Shown here piece by piece: positions 19,001 through 62,213 of a DNA stretch of 64,000 nt; the first letter of the stretch is position 1; every line of letters starts with the position of its first letter. Below the pieces are notes generated by a model that was given only the letters and a program-made list of their open reading frames with translations, made no database searches and was not told the origin of the DNA. Source of the DNA: Sphaerolaimus hirsutus (lineage: Eukaryota > Nematoda > Chromadorea > Monhysterida > Sphaerolaimidae). The stretch lies in NCBI GenBank assembly GCA_964036195.1, contig OZ038458.1, positions 10,429,832-10,493,831 of the forward strand, in the 5' to 3' direction. Made by a program: the position numbers and the translations under genes.

Positions 19001-22000
19001 TACGTCGTATAAATGATGTACATTATTCCAGACGGCGGTATTTGGAGGGGTTATTATTTAATTCATAGTGGCCATTATGAGGGGTATTTCGAGGGGGTAT
19101 TTCGAGAGGGGGGGGGGGGGGGTTTTCGAGAAAAAACGGTATGTGTATTTACACGTGCATATCGCGATTTCGACCCGCATAAACTTTGAATAGCAATGTT
19201 TTGAAAACGATTTGCACTAGAAATTGTGTCGATCTACATTTTGTGCCAATCTGAATCAATATGTTGTATTACGACACACGAGCTCGCCGGGCATTTTTAA
19301 ATTTCACATTCCATTCCACTGAAAACGGTGTATTTATAAACACCGAAACAGAAACTTTCAGCAAGTCGCCACCCAAGTATGCAGCCTGCAGGTAAATACG
19401 TGGCCAATTGCTTCCTCCAGTCGGCGGCGACAATGCATCACGCGCGGCGCAAGCATGGCACTCCCTCCTGCAGCGGCTAATGCGCGCACGCTGCAAAATG
19501 CATAATCCATGCGTCAGGTGAACGCGCCGCGCCGGCCGCATTTGCGTCCATGTGTGTGTGTACCAAAGCACGCATATTAGTTGCCATTGGATGCGGCCAG
19601 CTAGTGCCTGCCCGCGCGGCGGCACACACGCCCGAACACTGGCGCACTTAGTCACTGCTCTCGTGAACGCTCAAACGCAGCTGGTCAGAGCTCACGCGAT
19701 CGAGACATACGTAATCACTTAGCGCGGCAAACCGGGCCAGGTGTGGCATGGGCGGCGAGCAGTCGACGGCGGTGAAGGCGTTCAAGCCGCCCGGCGACTC
19801 GGACGACGAGAGCACCGGCGGCCGCGGCACGGCCAGGTGGAAGCGCAGATTGTCGGCCGTCATTGGAGGGGGTGCCGCCAGCAGCAATGAGGCGAGGATT
19901 GGCAGACCGGTGGGTTGTACAGAAGCAGCAAAGAAAAATTTTATTTCAGAGTAAACATATGTAAAAACACGCGAAAAAGTACATTGTTTCCACCTAAGAA
20001 AATGTGAAAACGTGGAACGGTGTATTTTATTTATTTTTTACCCAAGAAAATGTGAAAAAAGTCTTTTAAATGACCGCCCCCCCCCCCCCGGCTACGTTCT
20101 CTTATACACATAGAAAGTCTCTGCGCCAGGTCTCGTCGCGGGCGGGCAGCGCAGACAGCCGCCTCGCCGTGGTCGCGGCGCGCGAGCGACAGCGCGGCAG
20201 CCCCGCCAGGCCAGCCGACATGACAGACGCCGGCAGCAGTAACGTAACCTCCCGTCCAGTAAGCAGACAGTATTCCTACAGTGCGGCGGTGCCGCGCGGC
20301 CGCCGCACATCGATCGTTACAGCCGCGGTATGCGAAGAGGACGGTCACAAGGAACACCTGAAAGCGATGCTCTCACCTGACAGATACTACCCTAAGGGCG
20401 ATAATAGTCAAGGTAATATTCTACCGTATTTGGTCGAATTATCCCCCCTTGAATTGACCCCCCCCCCTCTCGAAATACCCCCAGGTCTGAGCGAGCTGGG
20501 GAAAACTAGACCCCTTCGAAATACCCCCCGTCCGGAATAATGTGCATCATATGTGCAATGTACAAGGTTTTTTGGTTCTGCAAATTTGCATCGCAGCTAC
20601 ACAGAGACTAGTTTGTGTAGATATACACTACCGTGCAGAATAGTTGAGACTTTTTGTGCTGCATGATTAATGTTGCCAGAACTTCGAAATGGTCGATATG
20701 CAAAACATTTGGATACTATAAATGGGTACCCTGGGCCTGGGGGGTTGACTACACATGCCCGGGATGACTGCCCCTCGAGTTCAAATCTGCATAAATTCCT
20801 AGTGTACAAACATATTAACTCAGTTTGTTCATGTTTCAGAATAGTTGAGACTTTTCTTGTTTTGGGCAGTAGCCACCCAGTATCTCACTTTAAAGTCTAT
20901 ATCCAATTCCTATGTTCATTTTTTAACAAAATTTTCACCATGGCAACTGCTTGCCTGCATTGCTGAGCTCTGTGTGCAGCAAAAAACATTCTAAGCATGA
21001 ACAGCATATGGCAATGCATATATGGAAATGTGGCATTTATTTATTTTTGCTGCAGTTTCGCATCCATTGCCAGCAACTCAGAAATAGGGGGTAGGCATAC
21101 TACTGAGTGGGGCTATTTGTTGTGTAAATTTGAGGTTTTGGCTTTGCTCTATTAGGGAGAAAAGTTGGCCCAACTGTGAATGAGTGATGTGCAATTATTT
21201 TGGATGGAATGAAGATGGAAGTTTGTAAGTGCTATAACTTTTGATTGGAAAGAGATATTGAAAAAACGTTGTTGTCAGATAAATTCTCTCTGTCTAAAGT
21301 ATGTTATAGACTGTTCAAGAACAAAATTTTCAAGCTGCAAACCCCAGTAAAATAAGCATAAAATATTTAGACACCATTAAAAACTTTGAAGTGCCATAAC
21401 TTTTGATTGGAAAGAGATATTGAACTCATTTTTGTTTTAAATGAATTCTCGTTGTCCAAAGTATATTCAAAAAAATTATTTTTTCATGTTCAAAAACTGG
21501 GTCAAATTGACATACGGAATTTAGACATCACTAAACCAACCACAAAAATAGAATCTGCAGGTTGTCCCGATCATTGTAAGTGGTGAATGATTTAAATCAG
21601 CACAGAAATGGTTGAGTTATTAAGCTTCAAAGACACTCATCCAGATTGCCCAATTTTCTGTATATTTATTGACCATCTTTTTATAGACCCCCCTTATCTC
21701 AGGCCTGGGGGATTATTTGAGCAAACAAAAAAATTTCGTAGTATCACCAGTATCAAACCCCAACATACTCAAATGGCATCAAAATTGGGCAAGGGACAAG
21801 AAAATGGGAAGCAAAAAGTGTGGTGGACCCCCAGCTAGGGTTCAAACGGGATACCGATCCCGGATCCCATGAAATTCCGGGATTTAGCAGTCCCGATCCC
21901 GATCCCGAAACCCCAATCCCCATCCCGAAATAAAAAAATACCAATCCCGATCCCGAAAACTTTCAAATCCCGATCCCGATCCCGAGAATCTCCCAAGTCC

Positions 22001-25000
22001 GGGATCCCGATCCCGGAAAAAATAGTGGAAATTATAAAAAGTGAAAAAATGACATTTTTGCGTGCAAAAATGTGAACGCAAACCCCCAGTGTCCATTTTA
22101 TGTCACTTTTCTGGCATCCAACAGTGTTTTGATACATTTATGAACAACTGTGAATGCCAGAACAGTGATGAAAATCTCTATCCCTAGACCCAAATCCTGA
22201 TCCCGAAAAAATTCCAATCCCGATCCCGATCCCGTGACCCCAATCCCGGCCAATCCCGATCCCGATCCCGAAATCTCAAAATACCAATCCCGATCCCGAT
22301 CCCGAAACCCCAATCCCGATCCCGATCCCGAAATCTCAAAAAGTGAATCCCGATCCCGATCCCGAAAAGTCAATCCCGTTTGAACCCTACCCCCAGCCTA
22401 CTGTGTCTCTATGTGTGAAAAGTCTCAACTATTCTGCACGGTAGTGTATAAATATAACAAGTTTTTGAAGATTTATTACCAGTTTTGGGTGGGTAAAACG
22501 CTATTCTTTACAAATTTCTGACGAAAAAATAAGAACCCCACTAATAAGCACCAACCCCCCTCAAAGTTTGCAGGCAAAATGATAAACCCCCTGGGTGTAT
22601 TTAGAGGAATTACGGTATAGTGTACTGTATGCAGGCAATGAATGCTCAGTAAAAATGTGTCCTGATCTGCAGAGAGCACACCGCCACTGTCGGACAACGA
22701 GCAGACGGGCGACGAGACGGGCCGGGTGGGCAGCGGCAAGTCGCGCACGCCGCTCAGCGGCAAGTCGGCCCTGCCGCCGCTGTGCGCGCAAACGAGCAAC
22801 GAGTCGGCGGCGAGCGCGCGCCGCCTCAGACGCAAGTTGAACATAACGCGCGGCACCCTGGTCACGCCCATCCTGCCGCAGCCCACCGCCGCCGTCGCGG
22901 CAACCAAGCCCGCGGAGCGGCCGGGCTCGGCGAAACGGCCCGGCGGCAGATGGCGCACTACGAAGTCGGGCAGTCTGGATTCCGGGCTGCACAAGGCGGT
23001 CGCCGCCGTGCAGCAGCCGGAACCGGAGCAGCGGCAAGCGCCGCGGCAAGACATCGCCGAAATCAGCCGGTCGCGTCAACACAGCGAGACCAGCTCTAAT
23101 GGATACGAGGATTATTGCGATTCGGATGGAAAACAGTCGCCGGCGGACATTGGCGGGAAGCTGGCGCCCATAAATGCGCCCGACCTGCAGCTAACGGATT
23201 TGGAGTGATTCAATTTTTGGGGAACGTTGTTTTCAAGCATACATTTAAATGTTTTTAAATGTATTTAAATGGTTAATACTGGCGCGCCAGGGAGGCTTGC
23301 GAAGTTAAAATAATTCCAGTCCACCCGAACGATTGAGTACGCTCAACAACAAAACAGCTCCACAACTCCACGCTCTACATCATGTGTTCCACCAATCGAA
23401 CTGTCATAAATGGCATCCAATCCACATGCAGCGTGCGCACCGGAATCTCATCGGCGAATATCGACTTAAGTTTGTTTGACACATGATTCTCGGCCAGGGC
23501 CGTATCCAGGGGGGGGGGGCGGGGGGGGCTGCAGCCCCCCCCCCCCCTCCCGGGGCGAGACCAAAATGTGACCGGAAAATGCGACTTTTTCAACGTCAGC
23601 GTAAAAATTTTTGCGCGCAAGCGCGCATTCTTCACCAGACATAAGGTATTATCAACGGATTTGCTCCATGTGGCCACAAATCATTATAAATACACTCAAT
23701 GTTGTGTTTTTTTGCTGTTTTGTATGTATATTTACATACATATACAGCATTCCATGGCGCTGACGCCAACGCCAATGGCGCCATGGCGTGGCGCCTACTA
23801 ATGGCGCCAGCGCCATGGCGCCATTCCGCCACTATGTAGCTAAAATTTTAGGGGGGGGCTGAGCCCCCCCCCCTCGCCGGTCTCCGTAAACAAGCAGCCC
23901 CCCCCGCTCAAAAATCCTGGATACGTCCCTGTTCTCGGCCTTCACAAACATCTACGAACGCTCGGCGGGCCGCATGCGATGCATTTTCTGAAGGACACAC
24001 TCCGTCATGACGTCATTGTTAATAATTTCAAAATTGTTCAAAAACCGTTTCAGGGAAAAAACATCAGGCGCTAGCACCCGACCCGGCTTTTCTCTTTTTG
24101 AATGATTTTTTTGTGAAAGTGCGTGAATAAGTATCCTGCTCGCGCGTTATCGACTTAGACATAAATAATTTGGGACGCATACCTTGCGGTCCACCGTGTA
24201 TAGCTGTACGTAGATTAATTATAGTGATACCTTCATGGCCAGAACAACAATAGCCAAAATTCGTAGGCAATGTAAATAATTTGTACAGTTGCGAATAATA
24301 AATCCCCGTGTGTTCAGTGTCGGGTTGTACATCATGTTGTCATGTATTTACGGTGTTGATCATTCAATCAAAATATTGGGTTAGGGATGATATATAAAGT
24401 TTTTTGAAGTTACCGTGTCTATAAACACAACATTTTTTAATAAAAAGCTACAACTCGAAACACGAAACCAACGAAAAAATGAAAATTTCTATGTGAAAGT
24501 GTGCACTTGCAGGCGAAAAATTGCAAAATACCTAGTGGATAAAGACAAAATACAAGAAAAATTTGACCGCCGTTTTTTAAAAAAACTGCTCCGACGCTTG
24601 CATTAAAACGACTTGCTTGCTTCCGACGTTTGAAAAACGCAAAAAAAAACTCCAGCTATCCCTAAACTGAACACTGCGTTACGGAAAAATTGAGTGTTGC
24701 AAACACAGGGGCCAGTTCCGCAAGTGGAGAAGGGAGATGTAAAAACGGCAAAAGCGAAGTGAAATTACTTATTATTTTTATTATTTTATTTCGCTTTTGC
24801 CATTTCACTTCGCCTTTACGCTTTTACTTCACCTTTGCCATTTTACTTCTCACTTCTCCACTTGCGGAACTGGATCAGGTCCTTGAAACTAGCGCCAGTA
24901 ATGGGAATGCTGGTTGGCTTTGTTTCTATGCAATTAATTGTCGATAAATTAATTTGATGAATGAATGAGGTTGATGATACAACTATTTAGACCACGCAAT

Positions 25001-27378
25001 TATAGCTGTAAATGGGTGCGACCAAAAACAACAAGGACGAGAACGCCCATTGACGACACTGTAAAAAATAAACCAATTGTCAACAGACCTCTTCATATTT
25101 GGCAATGGTAGATATTTCTGAGTGCAGCAGTGCAGCCCATTCTTGTTCCCGTGGGGTCGTACCGAGCAGAAATGCCTGGTGACTCAGGTCGAGTTCTTGG
25201 AAGCTGCAAAAAACAAGTGATAAATTATGAGAAAAGGAACGAAAGTTTTGTGGTCAATAGAATATGTAAGACAAAAAGAAGTTCCGACAAAATCCATTAT
25301 TTTGATGGCATAATTCTCTTCGTTCCTAGCCTGCAGTAGAACAAGTATTTTCGACGATCTCTCAGAGCCTACAAGAAAAAATACTGGATGCATAAATGCA
25401 GAAAATGAAGAAGCTGTTCCGGATTCCGGAAGAGGGGATTCCAAGGTGTTCAACCTATTGAACGCAGCAAAACTTTGACAAATCGAATAAAAATTGAAGC
25501 TCAGTACTAGAGAAGGACAATTTTCAAACTGATTGATTTCTAAGTTAAATCAATTGTCATGCCCCATGGCCGTATCCAGGGGGGCGGGGGGGCTGCAGCC
25601 CCCCCCCCTTCCCGGGTGAGACCTGAAAAAATTAAGGAAAATGCGACTTTCGGTACAAATTTTGCGCATTTCTCCGTCCGTCAGGTAGTATTTCATCACA
25701 TCAGTTCCTGAACAAAATTTCCATAAAAATACACTTTTTGGCGTGCCTGTCGCTATGTGTGTATGTATATTTACATACATATACAGCGATAGTTGGCGCC
25801 AGCGCCATTCCATCACTGTGTAGGGAAAATTTTAGGGGGGGGGGTTCAGCCCCCCCCCCCGTTCGCCGGGCACCGTAAACAAACAGCCCCCACCACGCTC
25901 AAAAATCCTTGATAAGGCCCTGCCATGCCCGGATAGGGACAAGTTTTCTCACACTTCAAAATTGTCATTGATTCACAAAATAAAATACCAGTATTATAAC
26001 TGATAGCACAAAAAGAATGTCTCACCCAAGTACGTAAAGATGCGGCGGCGTGTCCTGCAGGCCGTGCGTCAGCCAGGGGCCCAGCGGTCGCACGGCCGAC
26101 TTGCCGTTCACGTTGAATGTGCCCGCGAATATGCTGCAATGAAACTCTGTATGTGTAATTTTTTTAAAGAGTTTCTGATTGGCATTACATTAAGAGCCCG
26201 AACTTCTTTAAGTGGGTTGAGAGCTTACCACACCTCTAGATTCCCAATAATCGCCCCGGATAATTGACAGATTATTTTTTTTTTGGGGGGGGGGTGTTAT
26301 GCTCAATTGGATACCCCTGTTTACGAAAATTCATAAAACACACCAGTAAAACTGCGCCCGGGCTGGGTTTGTTCATTCAATATGAGCAATTCTACACAAA
26401 TTGAACATCAGGTAGTACTACTTTGTTTGAGTATTCTTCACATAAGAGTATGTGAACGCAATAAATTGGCCACGGACATTCATGAAATCCCTGACAAAAA
26501 AAATTACCCCCATCCCCGATTAAACCTCCTCGAATTTCGCTGGAAATACAATAAACCCGTTGGGGGTATCCCTCCAGGACGAAAAATCACGGATATACCG
26601 GGTGGCGCACGTCAGGCGCACGGTTTCAATTGGCTCCCAAAGCGTCAATTTTCAATGAAAACAGCTCAAATTTGGTATGGGAGTAGATAAATGTCCCCCA
26701 TTTGTTGTGTTAAGTGCATAATTTCATATCGCAAGATTTCATGTCGGAACGCGAAGGACAGTTCCATGTGTGTGTAAACATGTCCCATTGTGTTTGGATG
26801 CGCATGCGGTGCAAATGGTTGAACAGCAACAGCAAAATGCTGAACTTTCAAGATGTGGTCAAGCTGACAAATTAACATATTATATGGGGTGCATTTATCT
26901 ACTTCCATGCCAAATTTGGACTATTTTTATGAAGAATCGATGGTTTGGTAGATGATTTAAACTGTGCACCACGTTCAAACACGTATGAAACTGTGCTTCA
27001 CGTTCCGACATGATATCGTGCGAAATTAAATTATGCACTTAACACAACAAATGGGGGACATTTATCTACTCCCATACCAAATTTGAGTAGTTTTCATTCA
27101 AAATTGACGTGTTGGGAGCCAATTGAAACCGGGCGCCTGACGTGCGCCACCCGATAGATGTCGACTGACCTCCAAGTCTCAAAATCGCAATACTCCCTCT
27201 CCCTGGCCCTCATAACCTCCTCGACTAGCGCGCGAGCACTCGCAACCTCCACATCGTCAGCGTCGATTTCTTCCCCAGCGCTGCTGTCGTCGTCATAGGA
27301 GGCCGCGCGCAAGCGCAGATCGTTGCGGCTAGATGCATTCGACTGGTGGGCGGAGCTTGTGACTGATGTGGTCGCCAT
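13011..27378 (-). CDS. OCRL: OCRL/INPP5B-type inositol polyphosphate 5-phosphatase (5-phosphatase + ASH + RhoGAP-like)
   Basis: Removes the 5-phosphate of PI(4,5)P2 on endosomes, Golgi and cilia. Exons (-): 27378-27170, 26133-26026, 25203-25089, 18256-18036, 17845-17371, 17132-17022, 16659-16474, 15022-14807, 14381-14198, 13836-13685, 13298-13184, 13114-13011; 731 aa. Catalytic domain at about 70-376: FAGTFNVNGK, GFQELDLS, RLIGMLL, VMGNKGGVAV, NSHLAAG, RNQDY, WVGDMNYRLDD, PTYKYDTGTDEWD, PAWCDRVLWY, SDHKPV. ASH domain at about 414-545 (VRNLGRLPCEYLF, LVLHLRHGRDFFVTV, SCFGRSL). RhoGAP-like domain at about 550-731 (PIPRQLWMLGEHV, LLRMLDSLAEPIVP, TFQYIATLLRDLLAHK, GSIFAPMLFG). The N-terminal PH domain (over 100 residues in human) is absent unless exons lie upstream. 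The RhoGAP arginine finger is not seen (GLRQHNLFE), as in human OCRL. The least certain splice sites are the donors at 14807 and 14198. Confidence 0.95.
15100..15514. mobile_element. hAT-like MITE, GGCGCC family (OCRL intron 7)
   Basis: TIR CAGGGACGTAGCCAGG / CCTGGCTACGTCCTTG; perfect TSD CTACCGAT at 15092-15099 and 15515-15522. Central GGCGCC array and ATACATATACAGCGA motif. Confidence 0.88.
15570..16325. mobile_element. Element with inverted TTTCGCACA(T/A)ACGCCTG arrays and a perfect TSD (OCRL intron 7)
   Basis: The direct repeat GTCTGGCAG (15561-15569, 16326-16334) brackets it. Arrays near 15577-15780 and 16170-16320 alternate TTTCGCACA and its inverse TGTGCGAAA. CCGGGCACCCCAAACT and AGTTGGGATGCCCGG mirror each other inside. 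A second TIR sequence (about 15836-16100) interrupts the middle. Confidence 0.75.
16715..17005. mobile_element. CCGTATT-family element filling OCRL intron 6
   Basis: CCGTAATTACTCAAATAATC and inverse, TA flanks at 16713-16714 and 17006-17007. It makes up 291 of the 362 bp between exons 6 and 7. Confidence 0.75.
17180..17340. mobile_element. CCGTATT-family element filling OCRL intron 5
   Basis: CAGTATTTCTTCGAAATACC and inverse, with TA at 17178-17179 and 17341-17342. It makes up 161 of the 238-bp intron. Confidence 0.7.
17853..18031. mobile_element. Introner-like TIR element forming OCRL intron 4
   Basis: CAGTCCCAGACGCTGTAAAA and inverse GGGTCTGGGACTG enclose arms of GTAAAATG / CATTTTAC units. 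The intron (17846-18035, 190 bp) is almost entirely this element. The mirrored tips extend to CCTGGGGGCAGTCC and CCAGGTGCCAGTCC, so they overlap the acceptor and donor on the gene strand. No TSD was found. Confidence 0.7.
19400..19747 (+). promoter_or_regulatory. GC-rich 5' flank of the nested gene
   Basis: The stretch immediately upstream of the nested ATG is markedly richer in GC and CpG than the rest of the intron and lacks a recognisable repeat. That fits a CpG-type promoter or 5'UTR. Reading frames on both strands here look like composition artefacts. Confidence 0.3.
19748..23208 (+). CDS. Uncharacterised 330-aa basic, disordered protein nested in an OCRL intron
   Basis: Three exons, 19748-19909, 20118-20412 and 22673-23208, join with matching phases (0, then 1) into 330 codons. 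The gene lies wholly inside OCRL intron 3 on the opposite strand. The ATG context (ggcATGGGC) is good. The start MGGEQS fits the N-myristoylation pattern MGxxxS (inference only). The rest is Arg/Ser/Pro/Ala-rich with no visible membrane segment or folded domain. It has acidic runs (DSDDES, SDNEQTGDETG), basic patches (RGTARWKRR, RRLRRKLN) and an acidic end (DLQLTDLE). Exon codons are GC-rich like those of the neighbouring real genes. Its second intron (20413-22672) consists almost entirely of three nested transposons. I do not recognise the family. It could be lineage-specific or a fast-evolving signalling or ciliary protein. The gene model rests on codon use and splice logic only. Confidence 0.6.
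20631..22441. mobile_element. TA-flanked Tc1/mariner-like element, degenerate, itself interrupted
   Basis: TIR CCGTGCAGAATAGTTGAGAC, exactly mirrored at the right end, TA on both sides. An inner direct copy CAGAATAGTTGAGACTTTTC at about 20837 suggests IR/DR-type ends. The phrase TAACTTTTGATTGGAAAGAG occurs twice. No open transposase frame. Class is inferred from the TA flank and TIR style. Confidence 0.7.
21836..22389. mobile_element. hAT-like MITE, GGGATC array family (innermost of the nest)
   Basis: TIR TAGGGTTCAAACGGGA / TCCCGTTTGAACCCTA-type; perfect TSD CCCCCAGC at 21828-21835 and 22390-22397. The arms are CGGGATC arrays in opposite orientation. Confidence 0.9.
23495..23931. mobile_element. 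hAT-like MITE, GGCGCC family (OCRL intron 3)
   Basis: TIR CAGGGCCGTATCCAGG / CTGGATACGTCCCTG; perfect TSD TTCTCGGC at 23487-23494 and 23932-23939. Confidence 0.88.
23960..24197. mobile_element. GGACCGC-family MITE, reverse orientation (OCRL intron 3)
   Basis: CTCGGCGGGCCGCATGCGAT...GCATACCTTGCGGTCCACCG; contains ATGACGTCAT near 24006. Inverse of the family at 1846 and 10116. Confidence 0.65.
24712..24873. repeat. Near-perfect inverted repeat with AAGTGAAAT arms (OCRL intron 3)
   Basis: CCAGTTCCGCAAGTGGAGAA and inverse CTTCTCCACTTGCGGAACTGG bracket CAAAAGCGAAGTGAAAT and its mirror. It resembles the GTGAAGTG family at 3012-3315. Confidence 0.7.
25565..25922. mobile_element. hAT-like MITE, GGCGCC family (OCRL intron 2)
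   Basis: TIR CATGGCCGTATCCAGG / CTTGATAAGGCCCTG (diverged); TSD TCATGCCC / CCATGCCC (7 of 8). Confidence 0.75.
26599..27153. mobile_element. Foldback element in OCRL intron 1
   Basis: Long inverted arms start CGGGTGGCGCACGTCAGGCG and continue through ACCAAATTTGGTATGGGAG-type sequence for about 130 bp each, with a roughly 300-bp AT-rich spacer. No ORF of note. Confidence 0.75.
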
Positions 27379-29325
27379 TGGGGCGGAGTGTCTGCGAGGG
27401 GGCCGTTGCGATGTGAGTTATTTCGTTATATTGTGATGCTGGACAAGCAGAGCGAAAAAAAAACAAGCGTGCGCGATTATACGCATAAGATTTGATCTAG
27501 ATTCTGTCGAGGTCGGTTGACTGATATGATCGAACCAGACAGACCATAGAAGACAACCCGCACCATAAGGAAACCCAAAAGCAGAGTTGGAAACAAACCA
27601 CCAAGGAATGGAAACCCCAAGACAGCGGACAAACCCATGCAACATGAAACAGTGGCGAAATGGAGACAGGAACAGCTTCACATCTTACCCCTTCAGGCCA
27701 TTGGTCGACGGGCGTATAGTGTCAGTGTAGAAATGAGACATCTTGGCACCATTGGATTGTAGAATCTGATTGTGAATACTGTAAACTGTGGAGACCCAAC
27801 TTGCAAATAAAAAAATGTCATGCCCGCGAACATGGAGCAGGTGATTTTCCGCTGCACTTTCATCAAAATGGAAGATTTCAAATATTCATTTTAACTATTC
27901 ATTTTACAAATGCAATAACATCACAATACAATAACAAATGTGTTGTTTATCCAAGTTCCAGAACGAATCCACTGTCGACGAAAAATGACATAAAAAAATT
28001 ACGACACATCGTTCAGCGCAATTTACGCACAAAAACAAACATACAGATATCTTCTTCCCATATGTAAATACGATCAGGATACAGGGGTTTAGTATAAGTT
28101 TAGTCGGAAAACGGGACGGTTGAAAATTTCGTTTTTTGGTGTATTAGCATTTGGGGGTGCTGCATCCAGCCCCCACCCAACACTAGACCCCTGGTAAGGT
28201 GACACGAACAGAAACACGTATATAGACACCGCAGATGGCAAACTAAATACGATTTTTCAAATTTTTAAATATAAAAACAATACTACTGTATATTCATTGA
28301 ATAAGCCCCTCACTGAAAATGTAGAAATTAATTCGACCATCCGACTAAAATGAATACATATGCGTTAAAACACACTGCGTTATTCAATGTTAAAAATTAC
28401 AGGATAGAAGTTCCGGCCGACATACGGCGAAAAATCAGAAGCTCCCACCCCCCCAAAAAAAACCCAAGTCGAATAACTATTTACCTGGGGCGTTTTCATC
28501 AATATACGGTATTTCGAAAATCGATCGATGTCTGTGTGCCAAAATAATACCCATCGATCATTATTTTACAGAACAAAAACAGTAACGTATAAATCGGAAT
28601 AAAAAAATCGAGACCTACAAAATTGCAACATCATCAACCATTGGCTGAACAACCTAATGCGTGGACATTTCGTGAACGGACTTACGCATGCTACCGCAAT
28701 TTCTGAAGAGCAACGTAATTCTAAATTGTACGCTAGAGTGCAAATTGATTATTGTATTTGCAGCGGAAGAAATGTCGTGGGTTTTCCTGATAAATTATTT
28801 AGACTTGATTAAGCTTGATCGAAGAAGATTTACACACGAATAGCGTAGACAGGTGCTTTTTCAAGCATTTTTAAAAAATAATCCGATTTTTTAGAATAGC
28901 AACACGTAATAAGATTTTTCGATTAAATAATCGTTATAATTAAATAGGGAAACTGGAAAAACATATTTTTGACCAACCCTTCACACTGATAAGTTATTTT
29001 TCAATCACGCGCTTTTTAAAACTTACTTACAAATATATCCCGACAGATGCTGTTTTAAAAACGATCCCCCATAATATGATCCTTAATGGTCAACGCCCAA
29101 ACGCAATATATTTTACCTGTGATGTCTAGCAACAAAGCAATTTCAAATTGGCGCTTCCGTATACGTTTCTTCACAACAATAAATCAGTACATAGAACTGA
29201 ATGTAACTCCGCGCACTAGTTTGTCAAACATTTCTGTCAACTTTTTCTACCAAAACAGTTGACAAAAGTGTTTGAAAACCCCCCACCCTAAACTAGTGTG
29301 CAGCGTCACAATGCGTCACACGTCA
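27379..29325. other. Intergenic between the hnRNP stop and the OCRL start
   Basis: Both flanking genes run on the minus strand, so this holds the hnRNP 3'UTR and OCRL promoter. A CACTAGTTTG...AACTAGTGTG TIR repeat (29213-29301) lies just past the hnRNP stop. Otherwise AT-rich with nothing recognised. Confidence 0.35.
29213..29301. repeat. Short ACTAGT-ended inverted repeat in the hnRNP 3' flank
   Basis: GCACTAGTTTGTCAA and TGACAAAAGTGTTTGAAAAC...AACTAGTGTG form a small hairpin 25 bp past the stop codon, probably inside the 3'UTR. Confidence 0.5.
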
Positions 29326-32300
29326 TCACCACTCCCCATAGCCGCCGCCGCCACCGCCGCCGTACCCACCTCCGCCGCCGCCGCCTCCATAAGGGGGCGG
29401 AGCCATGCCGCGACCGGAGCCGCCGCGAGAGTCAAGGAACAACTCGATGTAGCGCTCGCCTGAATTTTTTTAATTTTTTTGTGAAAATTGAAAGGTTCAA
29501 TTGGGTGAACACGTTGGATTGGGCGTGGGGAAATTTCGACTGCGATATTCTAAATATTCAGTAATAAATATCTGATGCCATTTACCGCGCCAAGCCCTGA
29601 AATCGGAAAAGAAAAACCCTATAAAGGTATTTAAAGGGAGAAACAATACCTATATTTCCCCTGTCCTTCTTCATGGCCTCGACGGCATCATTGTGCGTGT
29701 AGAACTCGACTTTGCCCTCGCCACTGGGCCGTCCAGTTTTGGCGTCATCCAACAGCTTGATGCTGGCAATTTCCAGCGGCCGGAAGAACTGCCAAGGGGT
29801 GCGACAGATTAGACGCTTATACGAAGTTAATGGCGTATACTCATCGACAGTGTGCAAACACGATTCCCGAACCACAAGGTGTGCACACTGTCGCGCGGTT
29901 GGACTAGCGGCAGTATTGGCGGCGCAGCCTCGCATAACCCCCACCTGGACAATGTCGTATTCCTTAGCGCTGAAGGGCAGGCCGCGCATGCGCACGTGGT
30001 GTCCGGTGGATGGCCCCCTTGGTCTTGGGCCACCGCCGAATCCACTCGGGTCGCCCCCCGCCCACGGAGCCCCGCCAGGAGGACCCCCCGCCCCCATCCC
30101 GTACCCGCCCCCTGCGACACCCCCAAAGCACACATTCGGAACAGGTAACTGGGGTACTGGGCACCGTGGCAGGTGGTGGTCGAGCCAGACATCCGGCGAA
30201 TTTAAAAAGTCATAAAGTATTGTATTTTTTCCGCGAAACCGACCCAACCCACCCACCCACTCGCCCCACGATGTAAAATGAATGAAATTGAATGATTCAA
30301 ACGGAAAACGCACCATAACCGCCATATTCACCAAAGCCTTCGTAACCAGGGTATCCGTAACCTCCGTAGGCAGCGTATGGATCTGCAGTACGCGCGCAAT
30401 TGCTTAAACCTCAATCAACGAATCCAAAAACACACAAATTACTGCACCTCCATACATTCCGCCATAGGGCTGCCCCCACGGCTGTTGGGGACCATAACCG
30501 CCGCCGCCGTGCCGATCGTACGGACCGGGGCGCCCACCCCCGCCGCGCGGCGGGAACTTGCCGCCGCCGCCGCCGCCTAGACCAACAGTGGAGTACTTGC
30601 TGGTGGCTGCACGGGCGTGCCATGCCATTGGTGTGAGTGTGACGATTGGTAAGCCCCCCGCCCGAATAAGCCCCCCCCCCGTCTAAAGAAATGGCAGTGA
30701 GTGATAAAAAGTTCACGACTTAGCGACGCCTCCTGGTGTAAAATTACACCCTACAGATAGGGTTCAAACGGGATTGACTTTTCGGGATCGGGATCGGGAT
30801 TCACTTTTTGAGATTTCGGGATCGGGATCGGGATTGGGGTTTCGGGATCGGGATCGGGATTGGTATTTTGAGATTTCGGGATCGGGATCGGGATCGGGAT
30901 TGGCCGGGATTGGGGTCACGGGATCGGGATCGGGATTGGGATTGTCATTTTTTCGGGATCGGGATTGGGGTCTAGGGATAGAGATTTTTATCACTGTTCT
31001 GGCATTCACAGTTGTTCATAAAGGTCTCAAAACACTGTTGGATGCCAGAAAAGTGACATAAAATGGACGCTGGGGGTTTGTGTTCACATTTTTGCATGCA
31101 AAAATGTCATTTTTTCACTTTTTATAATTTCCACTATTTTTTCCGGGATCGGGATCCCGGACTTGGGAGATTCTCGGGATCGGGATCGGGATTTGAAAGT
31201 TTTCGGGATCGGGATCGGGATTGGTATTTTTGGATTTCGGGATCGGGATCGGGATTGGGGTTTCGGGATCGGGATCGGGACTGCTAAATCCCGGAATCTC
31301 ACGGGATCCGGGATCGGGATCCCGTTTGAACCCTACCTACAGATGCGCCCCAGCAGTATTTCGATAAATCTTTCTAAAAAGTAACAGTTTTGGCAGTTCC
31401 GATTCCGACGAGTGCTGCTACCAACGTCCAACCCATCCACAAAAATACATAAACCCAGAAAAATACAATCGCACATTCGCGTGACCCCCCTGACCCACTG
31501 GATGGCTTGTCGAACCAGTCGCTGGGCAGGGCGGGCTGCGGCGGCTCGTAGGCGGGCATGACGCCCATTTTCCTCAGCGCCCTGCTCAAGTCCTCCGAGC
31601 TGCTGCGGAACACCTCGATGTAGCGCCGGTTCATGTAGGTCATGTGCTTTTCCATGGCTTTGTCCACCTTGTACGGGTCGGCCAGCTGCACGAACGCCTC
31701 GCCAGACAGGCGGCCGTCTTTGTCCTCGACCAGCGTCACGCCGTCCGGTTTGACTTGCAGAGCTGTGATTGGGATATTGCATGTGTAGAAAAGCGATGCA
31801 CTTCTAAACACACTTTTGTCACACGAGTTTCACACAACTTTGTGACAGGATGGCGAAGGCGAATATTTTTGTCATGGAAAGGTTCCAAGATTGAACATAC
31901 CAGGGAAATCAATTCATTTAGTAAATTGCCCCGACGGAAGAAAAAACCAAAGAAACTGATAGCATGCTTAAAACGCTGCGACGATCTGAAAATGCCCCAG
32001 AACAACCGACGGTTGAACCAATCGATGACATCCTCCTTGGTCGCACTGAACGGCAGACCGCGCAGTCGCACCACCCCATCGTAGTTCGGCGGCCCGTTCG
32101 CGCCGCCGGCAGCGCCGGACTTGGAGCCGCGCGTGGAAATCATGTGCCACATTTCGGTCGCGGTCGCGGGGAACACTGAAATGAAACATAGAAGTTCGAA
32201 TGGAATTTAACAGCAACGGGCACGGCAGGGGTCTCCAGGATTTTAGCGCTCCCGGTGGCTGTATAGCAAATCGCTATGTATAGCTGTAATGTATAGCTCC

Positions 32301-51966: not shown

Positions 51967-54900
51967 ATGAGCCCCGGCGGCGCCAGGCACCAGGGCACCA
52001 CCAACGGCGTGCCGTCGACTAGGTCGCGCTGCCCAGTCATGTTGGCCGTGTCGGCCGCGGTGGCTCTTTTGGCTAGTTGTTGCCAGGCGGCCGCTGCGCA
52101 ACTGCAGGTCGATGGCGGTCTTGAGAAAGTGAATAATGATAGTGAGGGTGGAGTGGTGTTTGACATGGCGGCGGATTGGGGGGACGGTGACAGGCTGCAG
52201 TTGAAGGAGGGCATGAAGGTGCCCTTGAATTTGACGGTGGGCTTTTTGGTTGTACATAAGCCGACATTATTCATATTTTCATTTTTCAACTTTTCCGCAG
52301 GCCACTTACGAGTACCAATCAGCTGATCCTTACCTGCAAAAAGCGGACACATTCGGCGACACGGTTTTTATAGAACTGGTGCCGCGGGACGATCGAGTTT
52401 TGCAAGTTTGGCCCAAGCGTGTGAACGCGACTGCGGTTTGCGAGCGCAGTGTCAAGGCAAACGCTGCCGTCTGCAAAGCGAAGGCGCAGTTCATACTGGA
52501 AGGTTGGTACCGCAAATCTAAGACCCCCTCGATTAATTCCCCCTTGAATACCCCCCCTATTGGTGAGCAGAAATTACTCTTCCCCTCGAATAACCCCCTC
52601 TTGAATAACCCCCCTCTGGATGAAAAGGGTACAAAAATACGAAAGGAAGTTAACCTACGGCAGCAACAGCAGATACACATACAATGATGTGTATGCACAG
52701 GGACGCCCCCCCCCCGCCCTGGATACGTCCTTGTGTATGCAAGTGTATACGCATATTTTTGTTTTTGGACAGTTACATGAACAAACACCTGTATTACATG
52801 ACTTGACAAACTGCATCCATACAATGAATCAAGTTCAAGTTTTCCGAGGGAAAAATACCCCCCTCGAATAAACCTCCTTGATTAACTCCGCCCTCAGAAA
52901 CTTCTGACGAAAAATACCTCCCCTGGAGTCTTATTCGAGGATTTAGGGAATTAGCGAAATGTTTTAAAATATACCTGTAATCGAACACGGTTTCATCCTT
53001 CACAGCGACGTTTCTCGGCGAAACCTGCATAGTGCCGTCGATCACTCGGGCTTCAAACAATGAGATCATCTCCGATCGCATGCGAAATTTTTTTCAGTAT
53101 TGCGTGACGGTTATCCGCGACGGGAAAATCAAGCAGTATGTGTTCATCGGTGAGCTCATAGTTGATCAACTTGAAAATTTTTTTTAAACAAGTGAAATAA
53201 TTACCGGCGCCCACGGCAGGCACGTTGACCTTGCTGATCGTGTTAGCCAACGTGGGCCTCGGCTGCCAGCTCGACCTGGCCGTGGTGTGGTCCGTCATTC
53301 GTAGACCCATTGGACCGGCCATTGGCCTGCTGTGTCAGTTTGTCGTCATGCCCCTGGTTTGTCATCATTTTCGCTATTTTATTTTATGTTTTAATGTGTG
53401 TGGATGAGTCGATTGAGTGTCATTTTCACAGGTCGGCTGGGCACTAGCCTCAATGCTGCTGCTGCCGTACAATGAGCGCGCGCTGGCGCTGGGGATTTTC
53501 GTCGCCGCCTGCGCACCCGGCGGCGGCGCCTCGAATGTGTGGACCGTGTTGCTCGAGGGTGACTTGGATTTGAGCGTTACCATGACTTTTGTGAGCACCG
53601 TGTCGGCTTTGGGTGAGTTTTGAGGCTTTTGGAATTGTTTTGTTTTGTTCCCAATCAGGGCGCTCGAAGTTTCTCCACAGTCGATGGAGGGAATAAATTT
53701 TTCCCCTGTATTCACTAGGTTGCCATAAGTTATTTTCTGAACTTTTTTCAGTCTTTTCTTTCTGAGAAACGTCGATCATTATTGACATTATTTACTTTTT
53801 AGACACATCAACTAGGGTTCAAACGGGATTGACTTTTCGGGATCGGGATTCACTTTTTGAGATTTCGGGATCGGGATCGGGATTGGGGTTTCGGGATCGG
53901 GATCGGGATTGGTATTTTGAGATTTCGGGATCGGGATTGGCCGGGATTGGGGTCACGGGATCGGGATCGGGATTGACATTTTTACGGGATTGGGGTCTAG
54001 GGTTAAAGATTTTGGTCACTGTTCTGGCATTCACAGTTGTTCATAAAGGTCTCAAAACACTGTTGGATGCCAGAAAAGTGACATAAAATGGACGCTGGGT
54101 GTTTGCGTTCACATTTTTGCACGCAAAAATGTCATTTTTTCACTTTATATAATTTTCACTAGGTATTTTTTCCGGGATCGGGATCCCGGTAGGGTTGGGA
54201 ATTTCAAAATTTTCGGTTCCGGTTCTCGGTTCCAAAAGATTTCGGTTCGGGTATCGGTTCTCGGTTCCTGAAAATTTTCGGTTCCGGTTCTCGGTTCGGT
54301 TCTTAAACTCGGTTCCGGTTCGGTTGAAATGAAATGTTGTTCATTGGGTTCGCACAAATGGATGCTGATAGATACCAATAAGTGCAAGAACTTCCCGCCA
54401 GCTTTCGCTGCCGGTTTGTACAAGTTCTACCCCCGGTTCTTATTGAATCACAAAGTTTTCACCAATTGAATATTTATCACATAATCGTTTCCACCCTGTT
54501 TCTCAGGACATTCACAAAACCAATGAAAACTACTACCGGTTCTTTCGGTTCTAAAATGATCAAAATTTTGGTTCCGGGTAATAAAATAACCGGGTATCGG
54601 GTAATAATCGGCTGAACAACAGAAAAACAATATACCCAAGTTTACATGTGTAAGTACATTGGTTGGATATTTCATACTACAGGAGCATATCACAGCTTAT
54701 TATTTCATGGCAGAATCAGAGTTGTTATCAAAATACTGGTATTTAAAAAAGTGTAAAAGCAAACATATACGTTTTCTGTACTCGCGTACTTTCAAAAAGT
54801 ACACAAGTAAATGAGTACTGGTATTTTTTCTGGAGGAAACGTAAATGTATTTATGTAGTACGCGAGTGAGTACGCGTATTATTTTGAGTACAAACATAAA

Positions 54901-56943
54901 TAACTTTTGCCAACTACGGTTAAAACTGCCACAAAACCAATGAAAACTACTACCAGTGATAATGTGTATACTGCAGCGACATTACACCTTACAATGAAAT
55001 CTACCATATCCCATCTGAATAAATGAACATACATAAAAATTTCATCATATTTATCAAAGCAATTTTGTTCTTTTATTCAGGTGGGATATGGTAGATTTCA
55101 TTGTAAGGTGTAATGTCGCTGGAGTATATGTGAAATTACACGTTCCCGCACAATCATTTTGCAAACAGATGAATTTTGCAATTCTGAACACGCACCAAGA
55201 TGTTCAGCTGCTGTTTAAAGGCTTAGATGTAGGTGTTGAAAAAGCACTGTTTAAAAACTTTCAGATTCCTAGAAAATTTCGGTTCTTTCGGGTATTTACT
55301 TCGGTTCCGGGTATAAGTGCCGGTTCTCGGTTCCGGTTCGGTTCTCAAGGTCGGTTCCGGTTCTCGGTTCCAAAATAGTGCTCGGTTCTCGGTTCGGTTC
55401 GGTTCGGGTCGGTTCGGTTCCCCAACCCTAGATCCCGGACTTGGGAGATTCTCGGGATCGGGATCGGGATTTGAATTTTTTCGGGATCGGGATTGGTATT
55501 TTTGGATTTCGGGATCGGGATCGGGATTGGGGTTTCGGGATCGGGATCGGGACTGCTAAATCCCGGAATTTCACGGGATCCGGGATCGGGATCGGGATCC
55601 CGTTTGAACCCTAACATCAACATAATTTTTTGAAATCGTATACGTTTTGTAATCAATTAACGCAATTCACTGTCCCAACATACTCTCAGGTTTGATGCCG
55701 CTGTGGATATTCGCCGTGGGCAACGGCCTGCTCAGCTCGGGCACCGACACGCTCATCAAAGTCCCGCACAGGAACATCGTCACCGGGCTCGCAGTGCTCG
55801 TCGTGCCCATATTCGTGGGCGTTCTCATTCGCAAGATGCGGCCGAGTATGGCTGAGTGCTCCAAGAAAGTTAGCTAGTCGGCTGCGCTGTGCCATATAAC
55901 AAGTGATGAGTAAAGTTGCAAGTGGCAGGTCAACTAATAGGAAAGTATGGATGGCCGAGGGTTTTTCAAAAAAATTTGTTGTTGTTAAAAACGGGGTAGT
56001 TGGAAAAAACGTTTTTTCCATCGCTATATGAAAGTGACAGACTGACCTGCCAATTGAGCACAGCCAATTGGCGCGATGTGCAACTTCGCCAGGTTACACT
56101 TAAACCACTTAAGATTCAAAACGTCCCTCTCGCAGGTGTTGCGTCCATTCTTTCTACTCATCATCCTGTTCATCTGCACATTCGGCGTGTGGGCCAACCT
56201 GTACATGTTCCGCGTGATGTCCATCCGAGTGCTCGCGGCCGGCGCGCTTTTGCCCTGGATCGGCTACACCGTTGGCGCGCTTGTGGCGCTCGCGTGGGGT
56301 CAGGACAGGCGCGCCGTCACCGCTATTTCTATCGAGACCGGCGTGCAGAATAGTGGAGTCGCTATCGTGCTGCTGCAGGTGAAATTTGTAATGGATGGCT
56401 GTCCACACACTAGTTGACACATGTGTGTCAAGTGGTCTGTGTCAACTCAGATTTCGGCTTCATGTGTCGCAGAGGAATCTACAAATGCACATGCGCAATG
56501 TTGAAAAAAAAATATTACGGCAAGTGCATTGAGCATCGCTCTGCTACACGTGAAGCCGAAATCTGAGTTGACACAGACCAGTTGACACACATGCGTCAAC
56601 TAGTGTGTGACCCATCAATAAGTTGATAATCTTAAAAAAGGCCAATAAATGTTCACCGCCAACCACTCAACAGGCGACATTCGGTCAACCTGCGGGCGAC
56701 CTGGCCGCGGTAGCCCCCGTGGCCGTTTCCATGGCGACTCCGTTCCCGCTGCTGCTGTGCTTGCTGTGCCGTCTGGCCAAGTGGTGTTGTTACGCCGAGA
56801 TCGAAGAGTGCGGCGGCGCGAATAAGCAGGATGACGATGAGAAGAAGAATGGCCATATCGTGCTTTGTGGTTGGTGGTGGTTGGCTCTAGGGTTCAAACG
56901 GGACCAGTTTTTCGGACCGGGACCGGGACCAGAAATTTTCTAA
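51967..56943 (+). CDS. SLC10-family (sodium/bile acid cotransporter-like) membrane transporter with long extracellular N-terminus
   Basis: Exons: 51967-52236, 52301-52502, 53006-53149, 53220-53356, 53432-53612, 55690-55868, 56136-56378, 56674-56943; 541 aa. A hydrophobic stretch (VMLAVSAAVALLASCC, about residues 24-39) looks like a signal peptide. An extracellular domain follows (40-205; TFGDTVFIELVPRD, FLGETCIV). The multi-helix transporter core (205-500) carries LLIVLANVGLGCQL, GLLCQFVVMPL, the hallmark ACAPGGGASNVWTVLLEGD, LDLSVTMTFVSTVSALG and the cation-site-like ETGVQNSGVAIVLLQ. The long N-terminus suggests a P3/SLC10A3- or SLC10A5-like member rather than ASBT; substrate unknown. The end is odd: a 693-bp hAT-like element inserted at 56888 supplies the last 17 residues and the stop. 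Without it the frame would run about ten other codons to a TGA. Confidence 0.9.
54190..55430. mobile_element. hAT-like element, CGGTTC(T)CGG array family, nested in the 53813-55613 element
   Basis: TIR TAGGGTTGGG / CCCCAACCCTA; perfect TSD GATCCCGG at 54182-54189 and 55431-55438. The arms are GGTTCCGGTTCTCGGTTC arrays. The interior holds a GTAAATAC-type insert (about 54720-54916) and a 47-bp-arm hairpin (54967-55128). Confidence 0.9.
54967..55128. repeat. Hairpin with about 47-bp near-perfect arms
   Basis: TATACTGCAGCGACATTACA...CCATATCCCA is mirrored by TGGGATATGG...TGTCGCTGGAGTATA, with an AT-rich loop of about 65 bp, inside the 54190-55430 element. Confidence 0.75.
56405..56609. mobile_element. 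ACTAGTTGACA-type MITE (SLC10 intron 7)
   Basis: CACACTAGTTGACACATGTG and the inverse ending GTCAACTAGTGTGTG; inner CAGATTTCGGCTTCA mirrored. Close relative of 3890-4100. It fills 205 of 295 bp. Confidence 0.78.
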
Positions 56944-57580
56944 TGTCGGGACCGGGACCGGGACTGGGGGGTGGGGACCGGGACTGGCTTTTTTCAATTG
57001 TCGGGACCGGGACCGGGACTGGGGGGTGGGGACCGGGACTGGCTTTTTTCAATTGTCGGGACCGGGACCGGGACTGGGGGGTGGGGACCGGGACTGGCTT
57101 TTTTCAATTGTCGGGACCGGGACCGGGACTGGCTTTTTTCAATTGTCGGGACCGGGACCGGGACTGGGGTGTCGGGACCGGGACTGGGATTTGCCGAACC
57201 ATGTACCGGGACCGCGGTCTAGTTTGGACCCTATTCGTATGTAATATCCAGCCAATGTTGTTCCACTGTGTGAATGACGACTCTCAATGTATTAGCCTTT
57301 CCTAATAACATTATTCAAGCACTATTCCATTCCCATTCTGACTTGAAGTCGTGAAAATTTGGTGAAAAGTCATTGAAAAATACATTTTTCCCATCCCTTG
57401 TCGGGACCGCTATAAAATTCCGGGACCGGGACCGGGACTGGGTGGTCGGGACCGGGACCGGGACTGGCTTTTTTAAATTGTCGGGACCGGGACCGGGACT
57501 GGGGTGTCGGGACCGGGACCGCCCCAGTCCCGACTTTTTGCCGAACCATGTACCGGGACCGCGGTCCCGTTTGAACCCTA
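56888..57580. mobile_element. hAT-like MITE, GGGACC array family, inserted in the last SLC10 coding exon
   Basis: TIR TAGGGTTCAAACGGGAC / GTCCCGTTTGAACCCTA; perfect TSD GTTGGCTC at 56880-56887 and 57581-57588. The arrays are GGGACCGGGACTGG units. It shares the outer 16 bp of its TIR with the GGGATC family but has a different array. Confidence 0.95.
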
Positions 57581-59658: not shown

Positions 59659-60011
59659 TAGGGTGTCAAATTTTCCCGTTTCCGCTTTCCGCAGGCAATT
59701 TTTTTCCGTTTTCCGGCAAGTGCAAAAATTTTTCCGTTTTCTGGCAAGTGCAATTATTTTCCGCAGGCAAAATTCTTTCCGTTTTCCGCTATCCGCAGGC
59801 AAATTTTTGTTCCGTTTTCCGGCAAGTGCAAAAAAATTTTCCGTTTCCGTTTTCCGGCAAGTGCAAAAAATTTCCGTTTCCACTTTTCCGCTGGCAAAAT
59901 TCTTTCCGTTTTCCGCTTTCTGCAGGCAAATTTTTTTCCGTTTTCCGGCAAGTGCAAATATTTTTCCGTTTCTGCTTTCCGGCAAGTGCAAAAAAATTTG
60001 TTGACACCGTA
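59659..60011. mobile_element. hAT-like MITE, TTTTCCG array family
   Basis: TIR TAGGGTGTCAAATTT / AAATTTGTTGACACCGTA; TSD GTCACGTT / GTCACGGT (7 of 8). The array CCGTTTTCCGGCAAGTGCAA is the inverse-sense counterpart of that at 41925-42529. Confidence 0.85.
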
Positions 60012-60901: not shown

Positions 60902-61735
60902 TAGGTAGTGTGTATAGAGTCAATCACTACAACTAAAATACCTACAAGTGTCCATCAATCAACACTGCAAACTTTTCGCTGCATTCTTATATTTACATAT
61001 TTTTAACCTTACCGGATCCCTTATTTTGATGATCTTCCAATCCATAAAAATAAAATTAATATAATTTCCTGTAGATTGCTTCATTTTCACCCTTTCATTT
61101 TTCTGTTGTTTTTTTGCACTGCGCTGCGTGATGTCTCCCTGCCTACGCCGTTTCTCTCGCTCATTTATGGTTCAGCGGCGGGTTGCCGAAAAAAAGCGAT
61201 AATAAGCGGCTGCTTATGTCACTGTAAACCGCACGTTCACGTCATGTGCTCTGCTGACGCCCATACATTGACCTCATATGGCAATTTTTTCCCGCAAATA
61301 CAATTTTTTATTTGTTTGAGTTTTTCCAAAAACCTTGCTTGCTTGTTTGCACGTGATAATTTATATATTTATGTGCGTAACCACATTTTTGATTTCAATA
61401 CGAACAGGTCGATGGTACCACTTGATTTTTTTGTCATGAATGTCGTAAAAATCGTTACAACTTGCATTTTCTCAATTTGCCGAATATGCAACTGTCGCCA
61501 AAATTGACAAGTATGCAGTTAGCCCGATTTTGCCCGATTACGGTAGGAGCCCGCGATAAGTTGCAAATTGCCGCACAAGTTTCATTGTTGGCGGCCACCT
61601 GTTGCAGGGTTAAAGTTCTCACTGTTTGCCCGCCGCCCTGCCGCATCAATCACATTCTTGCTACATGCTGCCACTGAAACAAAGAGACCATGTTGGCGGC
61701 ATTTGTTCATGTAAGCTGCACTTTTTACACGGTGA

Positions 61736-62213
61736 CACAGTTGTTAAAATGTACGAACATTTACTTGAAAAATAGGCGTACGCGAGTACACGTTAAATAC
61801 ATTTACATATACTTTTTCACAAAGTAATGTACTTAGTTTTACGCGTACATTTTAAAAGTATACGCGTACAGAGAAAATGTGTTTTTTGTTGCTAAAATCG
61901 CAATTTTCTGTTGCTAATGAGACAATTTTGAAGAAATCATATAATTTTTCTAAAAAATATTAAATGATCACTATAAACGACATATATTGTGTCTTCCATT
62001 GTAAAACTCACCCTCACAGGTGAAAATTTGTGTAAAAATACGTTTTCCAGGGGAAAGTACTCACTTTTACATTTTCCTGGGGAAAAAAGTATTTTACTCA
62101 CATTTACGCATGAGTAAGAGTGAAAAAAAAATATTTTACATTTTCTATAGATTCTGGTGAGTAAAAATAAAATACTTACATTTGAAAAAAGTTCAGGAAT
62201 TCTAACAACTCTG
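61736..62213. mobile_element. hAT-like MITE, GTAAATAC/TACGCG array family
   Basis: TIR CACAGTTGTTAAAAT / ATTCTAACAACTCTG; perfect TSD CACGGTGA at 61728-61735 and 62214-62221. Confidence 0.85.

Follow-up and report, generated by a model that had tools for sequence, protein, structure and literature searches.

Transposases of the hAT superfamily read subterminal repeats through an N-terminal DNA-binding part, that of Ac binding AAACGG repeats, and 903 Ac/Ds elements have been described with common 11-bp terminal inverted repeats (TIRs) and diverse interiors (PMC3260210). In Hermes, one end has a palindromic first pair followed by antisense repeats, while at the other the first repeat lies in the TIR and sense repeats follow, and this asymmetry of the ends is necessary (PMC10368747). 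Repeat polarity likewise differs between the ends of Kat1 (PMC4763223). Domains of the BED-Hermes/CGGBP type have diverse preferences, mostly for CGG and in some cases for GCGC or AT-rich DNA, and the motifs of four hAT proteins match their own subterminal regions (PMC8097297). What is said of these papers here and below refers to portions of their text. We analyzed a stretch of 64,000 nucleotides of the nematode Sphaerolaimus hirsutus (assembly GCA_964036195.1, contig OZ038458.1, positions 10,429,832 to 10,493,831; hereafter the window), which holds a series of short hAT-like elements with similar tips but differing arrays of short repeat units.

Small relics of hAT transposons with common tips but differing short arrays number in the thousands in this genome. 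They are probably non-autonomous miniature inverted-repeat transposable elements (MITEs) of the hAT superfamily whose arrays serve as transposase sites and whose sister families arise by a change of unit throughout nearly the whole array. The sample comprised the window plus 140 kb from other contigs (14 stretches, each of 10 kb), and the assembly searched amounts to 348 Mb in 762 contigs, several of them of about 25–34 Mb.

Array units in two tip groups

The main case is the comparison of the loci L034, L039 and L048 together with genome-wide counts. Elements of the CAGAGTTG group have common arm scaffolds in which nearly every slot is filled with ACGTTT, ACGCTT or ACACTT. The arms of L034 and L039 are homologous, and their interiors do not align. 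When slots were scored only where the reference copy has the exact unit, the third base of ACGCTT in L039 differed in L034 in 6 of 7 slots of the 3' arm and in all 6 of the 5' arm, with no difference among the 65 cells of the other five unit bases; the spacers differed at 29 of 141 sites (3' arm) and 17 of 113 (5' arm). The second ACACTT 3' arm, L039a, differs from L039 at the same base in 7 of 7 slots and at 4 of 35 other cells, the latter owing to two slots at the point where homology runs out. Spacer differences of L039a amount to 12 of 107 sites relative to L039 and 19 of 113 relative to L034, which has the like unit. In two flanks of hAT-domain genes, L048 and L055, these slots are occupied by ACGTTT. 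Relative to L039, the fourth base differs in 5 of 6 and 4 of 4 of these, respectively, none of the 30 cells of L048 outside the fourth base differs, and the two flanks, which have a common unit, differ from each other at 2 of 36 cells. Read by eye, the new unit stands on both sides of the palindrome at the 5' end.

The genome scan, which recorded two adjacent units before WCCAAAAATACC, returned 5,432 places. The like pairs ACGC/ACGC, ACAC/ACAC and ACGT/ACGT were found 1,099, 1,245 and 2,262 times, so that adjacent units agree at 4,606 places (85%), compared with at most 42% expected if neighbours were independent.

In the second group, which has the tip TAGGGTTCAAACG, the GGGATC, GGGACC and GATATC families (units CGGGAT, CGGGAC and CGATAT) have a common tip-proximal frame and units that lie 1–2 bases apart. 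Their gene-3'-type ends read TAGGGTTCAAACG-GGAT-TGACTTTTCG-GGATC, TAGGGTTCAAACG-GGAC-CAGTTTTTCG-GACC and, in the gene flank L052, TAGGGTTCAAACG-ATAT-CAGTTTTCG-ATATC, with GACTTTTCG in the MITE L020. In a spacer test with units masked, tips removed and 1000 shuffles, the likeness of GGGATC and GGGACC spacers exceeded 1000 of 1000 shuffles in both arms, and that of GGGATC and GATATC spacers exceeded all but 1 of 1000 in the left arm. When the 5' arms of the GGGATC and GGGACC families are aligned, 14 of 16 units have a different sixth base, while the remaining unit positions differ in 9 of 79 cells; the like-unit control shows no difference in 96 unit cells and 11 differences in 89 spacer sites.

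An earlier note on the window had described the interiors as completely different and had proposed that arrays are swapped or amplified while the tip is kept. The former holds between tip groups but not within the TAGGGTTCAAACG group, given the like frames and nearly identical units. As to the latter, nearly every slot of a related scaffold seems to have received a different unit in the CAGAGTTG group and, less clearly, in the TAGGGTTCAAACG group, so that almost the whole set of docking sites in these two groups would have changed in concert while the end around it stayed related. Since the GGAAAACGG, CGGTTC and TTTAAACG families share only the short tip with these groups, they may be separate hAT lineages.

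Tips, target-site duplications and array direction

On re-reading, all ten elements listed earlier for the window start with TAGGGT, end with ACCCTA and have a perfect 8-bp target-site duplication (TSD), and the named arrays are present. A TSD match at the right offset was found in 10 of 26 tip pairs spaced 40–3000 bp, compared with 1 match in total at eight other offsets (allowing up to 1 mismatch) and 1 in all for TSD lengths of 5–11 other than 8. Seven more TAGGG elements with at most 1 TSD mismatch were found in the 140 kb of other contigs, as were elements tipped CAGGGTTGG, CAGAGTTG, CAGGCTG, CAGGGGTC and TAGTGATG, these coming from a listing with a chance background out of which the CAG- and TAGTGATG-tip elements were chosen by eye. 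At 20 of 30 loci centred on TAGGGTTCAAACGGGAT, some of which are the two ends of one element, a TSD-flanked pair was present, and in 19 it belonged to the queried family, that of L020 being a neighbouring GATATC element. Pairwise identity among ten GGGATC copies ranges from 62.8 to 98.4% (median 93.2%). The 8-bp TSD and the short inverted tip of C/TAG(N)G type are those of the hAT superfamily. TSD sequence was rejected as a subgroup marker, 29 TSDs giving G1/C8 in 57% and T2/A7 in 38%, which is too weak.

The arrays are tandem, with periods of 26, 34 and 60 bp in the window, and of low complexity. Their confinement to tip pairs is supported, and a reading as free satellites is not: 29 of 31 array clusters (five units each) in the window and the 140 kb lie inside TSD-flanked tip pairs, the two outside being the element at 59659, with a TSD of 7/8 and an altered tip, and a GATATC fragment at 47335.

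When ends were counted on both strands of the assembly, with the reversed pattern as the control, TAGGGTTCRAACG gave 15,907 ends (20 reversed), TAGGGTGTCAA 12,392 (97), TAGGGTTGG 19,924 (1,870), TAGGGTTCAAACGGGAT 8,581 (0), TAGGGTTCRAACGGGACC 2,348 (0) and TAGGGTTCRAACGATAT 3,477 (0). The first 100 TAGGGTTCRAACG ends, from the first 2.93 Mb of contig 1, were all labelled by unit (49 GGGAT, 25 GATAT, 20 GGGACC and 6 other). Neighbours less than 2.5 kb apart comprised 34 convergent, 8 divergent and 2 same-way pairs. The unit agreed in 31 of 31 fully labelled convergent pairs, three further pairs having one unlabelled end, while shuffled labels gave a mean of 11.8 agreements and never more than 24 in 100,000 trials. 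A separate size class was seen among the first 100 TAGGGTGTCAA places, where six end pairs lie 1.95–1.98 kb apart (on contig 1, for example, 978412–980382, 1176619–1178596, 2519155–2521125 and 2960372–2962349); the MITEs read here measure 0.35–0.65 kb.

The arrays had been thought to be usually inverted between the arms. Instead, the arms aligned as direct repeats in 21 of 23 TAGGG elements, two being unclear (36624 and L023:265) and none inverted. Among CAG-tip elements 4 of 10 were direct and 6 unclear, and both TAGTGATG elements were direct, while three long-TIR elements of a different appearance scored as inverted, so the test is able to return that result. This comparison excludes the nested hosts 40488 and 53813 and the short elements L001, L017, L032:5566 and L043:7165, and the direct scores of L039:1689 and L039:3984 are contaminated (a nested GGAAAACGG and a nested CAGAGTTG element, respectively). 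Forward and reverse units in the two halves numbered 12/0 and 13/2 for GGGATC in 30758, 18/0 and 18/0 for GGAAA in 41925, 15/0 and 15/0 for CGGTTC in 54190, and 18/0 and 10/1 for GGGACC in 56888. Among the first 100 places of ACGTTT type, 25 neighbours less than 1.3 kb apart were on the same strand and none on opposite strands. Because the arrays run one way through both arms, the two ends of an element show them facing opposite ways when viewed from the respective tip. The description of the arrays as mostly self-complementary, judged by reading, fits GATATC and GGCGCC, partly fits TTTAAACG and GGGATC, and does not fit GGAAAACGG, CGGTTC or GGGACC.

What is inverted is the tip alone and, in the TAGGGTTCAAACG group, also the first unit, which lies within the TIR. 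One end type of this group continues with xGACTTTTCG and then sense units; the other has a palindrome with its own unit (CGGGATCCCG, CGATATATCG, CGGGACCGCGGTCCCG), followed by antisense units. Among 42 CGGGAT ends, 14 were of the palindrome type, 24 of the sense type and 4 neither; all 14 palindromic ends led into antisense arrays, and 23 of the 24 sense-type ends into sense arrays, with one tie. Two of 8 CGATAT ends were palindromic and 6 sense, and the two CGGGAC ends were one of each. The GATATC gene flanks L051 and L052 terminate in the sense form, which identifies it as the gene-3' end. By eye, a palindromic first pair at one end was also seen in the CAGAGTTG group and not in GGAAAACGG or CGGTTC elements. 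Opposite repeat polarity relative to the two tips and a palindromic first pair at one end only are thus both present, as in the Hermes architecture.

hAT-domain genes and competing explanations

A profile search with PF05699 (hAT dimerisation domain) gave at least 28 matches in the genome, and 13 3' flanks covering 14 of these were compared. An array was present in 10 of the 13, and 9 of the 10 reached the expected tip. The GGAAAACGG array lies beside L045, L046, L049, L056 and L057. In L045, L046, L049 and L057 the arrays are TTTTCCGTTTCCG-like and end with GACACCCTA, or in L049 with GACGCCCTA (tip GCCCTA), while in L056 the start of the array is visible and the flank is too short to reach the tip. 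The GATATC flanks L051 and L052 have AATATCGATATCG arrays closing with GATATCGTTTGAACCCTA. L047, L048 and L055 lead to CAGAGTTG/CAGTGTTG ends of ACGTTT type (CAACTCTG or CAACACTG), with 2, 6 and 4 TTTACG units, respectively, the array of L047 being weak. No such end was found in L050 and L053 (900 bases each) or L054 (330 bases). The alignment of GATATC MITEs with L051/L052 starts at the tip and continues across the 3' untranslated part, well past the array, so that these MITEs share their end with a hAT-gene flank; positions 1–269 of 41925 (the tip and mostly array) match the L045/L046 3' end beyond the hAT domain at 83%.

Taken with the TSDs elsewhere in the genome, these flanks support the hAT identity proposed earlier. 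Genes with a hAT domain lie beside the GGAAAACGG, GATATC and CAGAGTTG arrays; for GGGATC, GGGACC, CGGTTC and TTTAAACG, no gene was found among the 13 flanks. A single transposase common to all families is not supported, since three array types each adjoin hAT-domain genes, and several such genes with differing flanks adjoin the GGAAAACGG array.

The arrays are most likely docking sites of the elements' own enzymes. Tip and 8-bp duplication would be the product of the hAT catalytic reaction, and the array the set of subterminal sites that the cognate transposase recognises with its DNA-binding part, shown in opposite polarity to the two tips by arrays that run one way. For the TAGGGTTCAAACG and CAGAGTTG groups, sites are sense at the gene-3' end, whereas the opposite end begins with a unit-against-unit palindrome followed by antisense sites, a difference that would make the ends distinguishable, as Hermes requires. 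A family would split when the recognised unit changes (CGGGAT, CGGGAC, CGATAT; or ACGTTT, ACGCTT, ACACTT) and the changed unit spreads to nearly all sites of both arms, with the tip and much of the spacing kept. Tips, TSDs, polarity, related scaffolds, the agreement of units within elements and the hAT-domain genes beside three array types are observed; binding by the transposase, spread of the new unit by selection as opposed to homogenisation, and co-evolution with the transposase as the driver are inferences. A stronger version, amounting to transposon speciation in progress, in which hAT lineages of one genome repeatedly re-coded the unit by 1–2 bases at nearly all sites of both arms but retained tip, polarity, palindrome and much of the spacing, each step being matched in the transposase DNA-binding domain and perhaps allowing escape from MITE parasites, is a tentative proposal that we place somewhat below even chances.

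Several findings weigh against an array-wide unit change linked to transposases. In the CAGAGTTG group the copies are few (three 3' and two 5' arms of MITEs plus two gene flanks), the scoring was restricted to slots with an exact reference unit, 826 of the 5,432 places fall outside the three like pairs (ACAT/ACAT included in the 826), and the step from ACGCTT to ACACTT is also a CpG transition. In the TAGGGTTCAAACG group, the right-arm match of GGGATC and GATATC spacers is weak, being reached by 53 of 1000 shuffles, the best left-arm match of GGGATC and GGGACC spacers lies at a differing distance from the tip, and the spacers of these two differ at 30 of 76 sites in an alignment partly driven by the units. 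The switch in the GGGACC family is seen in one full GGGACC element, and a single CGGGAC unit occurs in 9 of 12 GGGATC copies (window 21836–41366 and loci L002–L031), the printed copies having this lone CGGGAC at the same place of the 5' arm (CGGGACTGCTAA or CGGGACTGGTAA). The link to transposases is drawn from the downstream 3' flanks of hAT-domain genes, and GGGATC, the largest of the three TAGGGTTCAAACG families, is without a transposase among the 13 flanks. A zf-BED profile search of the genome at E ≤0.1 gave 15 matches, none of them near hAT-domain matches; as Pfam misses this DNA-binding domain in CGGBP1 (PMC8097297), this result speaks neither for nor against the proposed mechanism.

The same arrays might have been produced by neutral homogenisation, with slippage, unequal exchange or gene conversion spreading a mutated unit while the transposase stays unchanged and reads mainly the tip. 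The tandem periods of 26, 34 and 60 bp, the fact that the arms are direct repeats of each other and the lack of colinearity between the GGGATC and GGGACC left arms all speak for such a process. Nevertheless, the CAGAGTTG units stand apart among related spacers and yet are altered together in both arms, the 31 labelled end pairs show no mixing of units, and the 5'-end palindrome has the new unit on both sides, which together make this explanation rather unlikely in our judgement.

Decay of CpG in old copies would account for the step from ACGCTT to ACACTT, which is a change of CG to CA, and of the 37 aligned CpGs of L039, L034 has 19 as CA, 7 as TG, 4 as CG and 7 as other. However, the window shows no CpG depletion (observed/expected 1.09), the G of the unit has changed in 12 of 13 slots and the preceding C in 0 of 13 (0 of 7 in L039a), pairs of ACACTT occur at about the same frequency as those of ACGCTT (1,245 versus 1,099), and neither ACGTTT/ACGCTT nor CGGGAT/CGGGAC/CGATAT is explained; we regard this origin as very improbable. 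Still harder to credit is that the MITEs have taken up ordinary satellite DNA: tandem arrays of low complexity are what such capture would leave, but nearly all clusters in the window and the 140 kb (29 of 31) lie inside TSD-flanked pairs, and hAT genes, too, are flanked by GGAAAACGG and GATATC arrays.

Individual elements and relation to known systems

GGGATC-family MITEs lie in the window at 21836–22389 (+ strand, from array direction; TSD CCCCCAGC; the left end, a degraded palindrome type, was classed as neither), 30758–31335 (−; TSD CCTACAGA; arrays at 30769–30965 and 31144–31324 in one direction), 39866–40309 (−; TSD GTATCAAG), 40688–41366 (+; TSD GTGGCATA) and 53813–55613 (−; TSD ACATCAAC). 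The last is host to a nested CGGTTC-family element at 54190–55430 (no strand assigned; TSD GATCCCGG; 15 and 15 CGGTTC copies per half in a single direction). The GATATC-family element at 40488–43006 (−; TSD CTGGTGGC) contains both the GGGATC MITE at 40688 and a GGAAAACGGAAA-family MITE at 41925–42529 (−; TSD GGTTGCAC). With a second 3'-type tip at 41698 it looks like one and a half GATATC elements in tandem; the extra inner end and the one outer TSD make it a multi-ended composite slightly like double Ds. The remaining TAGGG elements are a TTTAAACG-family MITE with TAGGGTTGG tips and unclear arm direction at 36624–37305 (no strand assigned; TSD ATCTAGAC), a GGGACC-family MITE at 56888–57580 (−; TSD GTTGGCTC) whose spacers are related to those of the GGGATC family, and a GGAAAACGG-family MITE at 59659–60011 (+), where the reported 7/8 TSD was confirmed and the right tip reads ACCGTA.

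The span noted earlier closes at 62213, where a CACAGTTG/CAGAGTTG-tip element (61736–62213, +; perfect TSD CACGGTGA) has its right end, and by eye this end resembles the 3' end of L047. CAG-tip elements with TSDs are present, as had been claimed: a CAGGG-tip element with GGCGCC motifs and poly-G at 23495–23931 (perfect TSD TTCTCGGC; no strand assigned, arm direction unclear), two at 35847–36289 and 38882–39069 (TSD 7/8 each), and a CAGTGTTG-tip element at 4683–5147 (no strand assigned; TSD 7/8), whose tip is like that of L055. In this last element the first unit pair is AAATGTA/TATGTTT and the palindrome is broken, which by eye looks like a two-sided CpG loss, unlike the whole-unit switches. 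At 23495–23931 and 35847–36289 the CAGGG/CAGTG tips give way to CGTATCCAGGGGGG or GCGTAGCCAGGGGG and to long runs of G; these elements are a hAT-like group of their own. Long inverted arms with 8-bp edge repeats and the tips GTATGGGAG, GCGGTTTTTGG and CATTTTGCAGGG were seen at 26675–27077, L035:133–942 and L038:3236–4095 and probably belong to other transposon types. Ten of the 15 zf-BED matches lie within 243 kb of contig 1 (7466186–7708630), seven of them within 23 kb, and may be a hAT-derived gene cluster. Gene fragments are also present: the open frames at 17128–17907 (−) and 29582–30403 (−) gave a match to an inositol polyphosphate phosphatase-like domain (PF22669 at E 8e-40) and a possible RRM scoring 20.4 bits against a cut-off of 20.7.

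A change of recognition unit poses a puzzle, since transposase and many sites must change together and a one-sided change should stop movement. Here, one genome holds several unit variants in related scaffolds and thousands of copies, and some variants have hAT-domain genes next to them, so that the order of changes, the possible intermediates (the 826 of 5,432 places) and the matching protein changes could be read directly. The genome also supplies sets of related yet distinct hAT ends for recognition studies, and would make it possible to study the way in which a transposon alters its recognition code.

REP elements and RAYT transposases of bacteria, whose enzyme and repeat type are unrelated to hAT, are reportedly treated together as a repeat and its linked transposase, with coevolution. 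Tips of C/TAGGG form are a feature in common with Ac/Ds. Further likenesses to Ac/Ds are the 8-bp TSD and the multiple transposase-binding hexamers, AAACGG being contained in the GGAAAACGG unit and the TAGGGTTCAAACGGGAT tip; in contrast, all Ac/Ds classes were scored for one hexamer, and the part of that paper considered here reports no switched-unit series (PMC3260210). The elements resemble Hermes in that their subterminal repeats have opposite polarity at either end, the polarity from each tip being our reading of PMC10368747, but Hermes has scattered AAGT motifs, whereas dense arrays of 6-bp units, with several units per tip group, are found here. The portion of PMC7385995 considered holds nothing on subterminal repeats. 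Since family-specific subterminal repeats have been described for Ac, Hermes, Kat1 and CGGBP-type hATs, the arrays as such are not new. Among the open-access papers listed by our literature searches, no title or abstract opening described switched units in a shared hAT scaffold, and it is this related scaffold with switched units that is the new part, hAT MITEs with subterminal sites being already known. The arrays fall into the same three classes as the preferences of CGGBP-type domains, namely CGG (CGGGAT, CGGGAC, CGGTTC, ACGGAAA), GGCGCC and AT-rich; however, while the part of PMC8097297 used here compares proteins across species, the sister families described here differ, on a related scaffold, by 1–2 bases within one genome.

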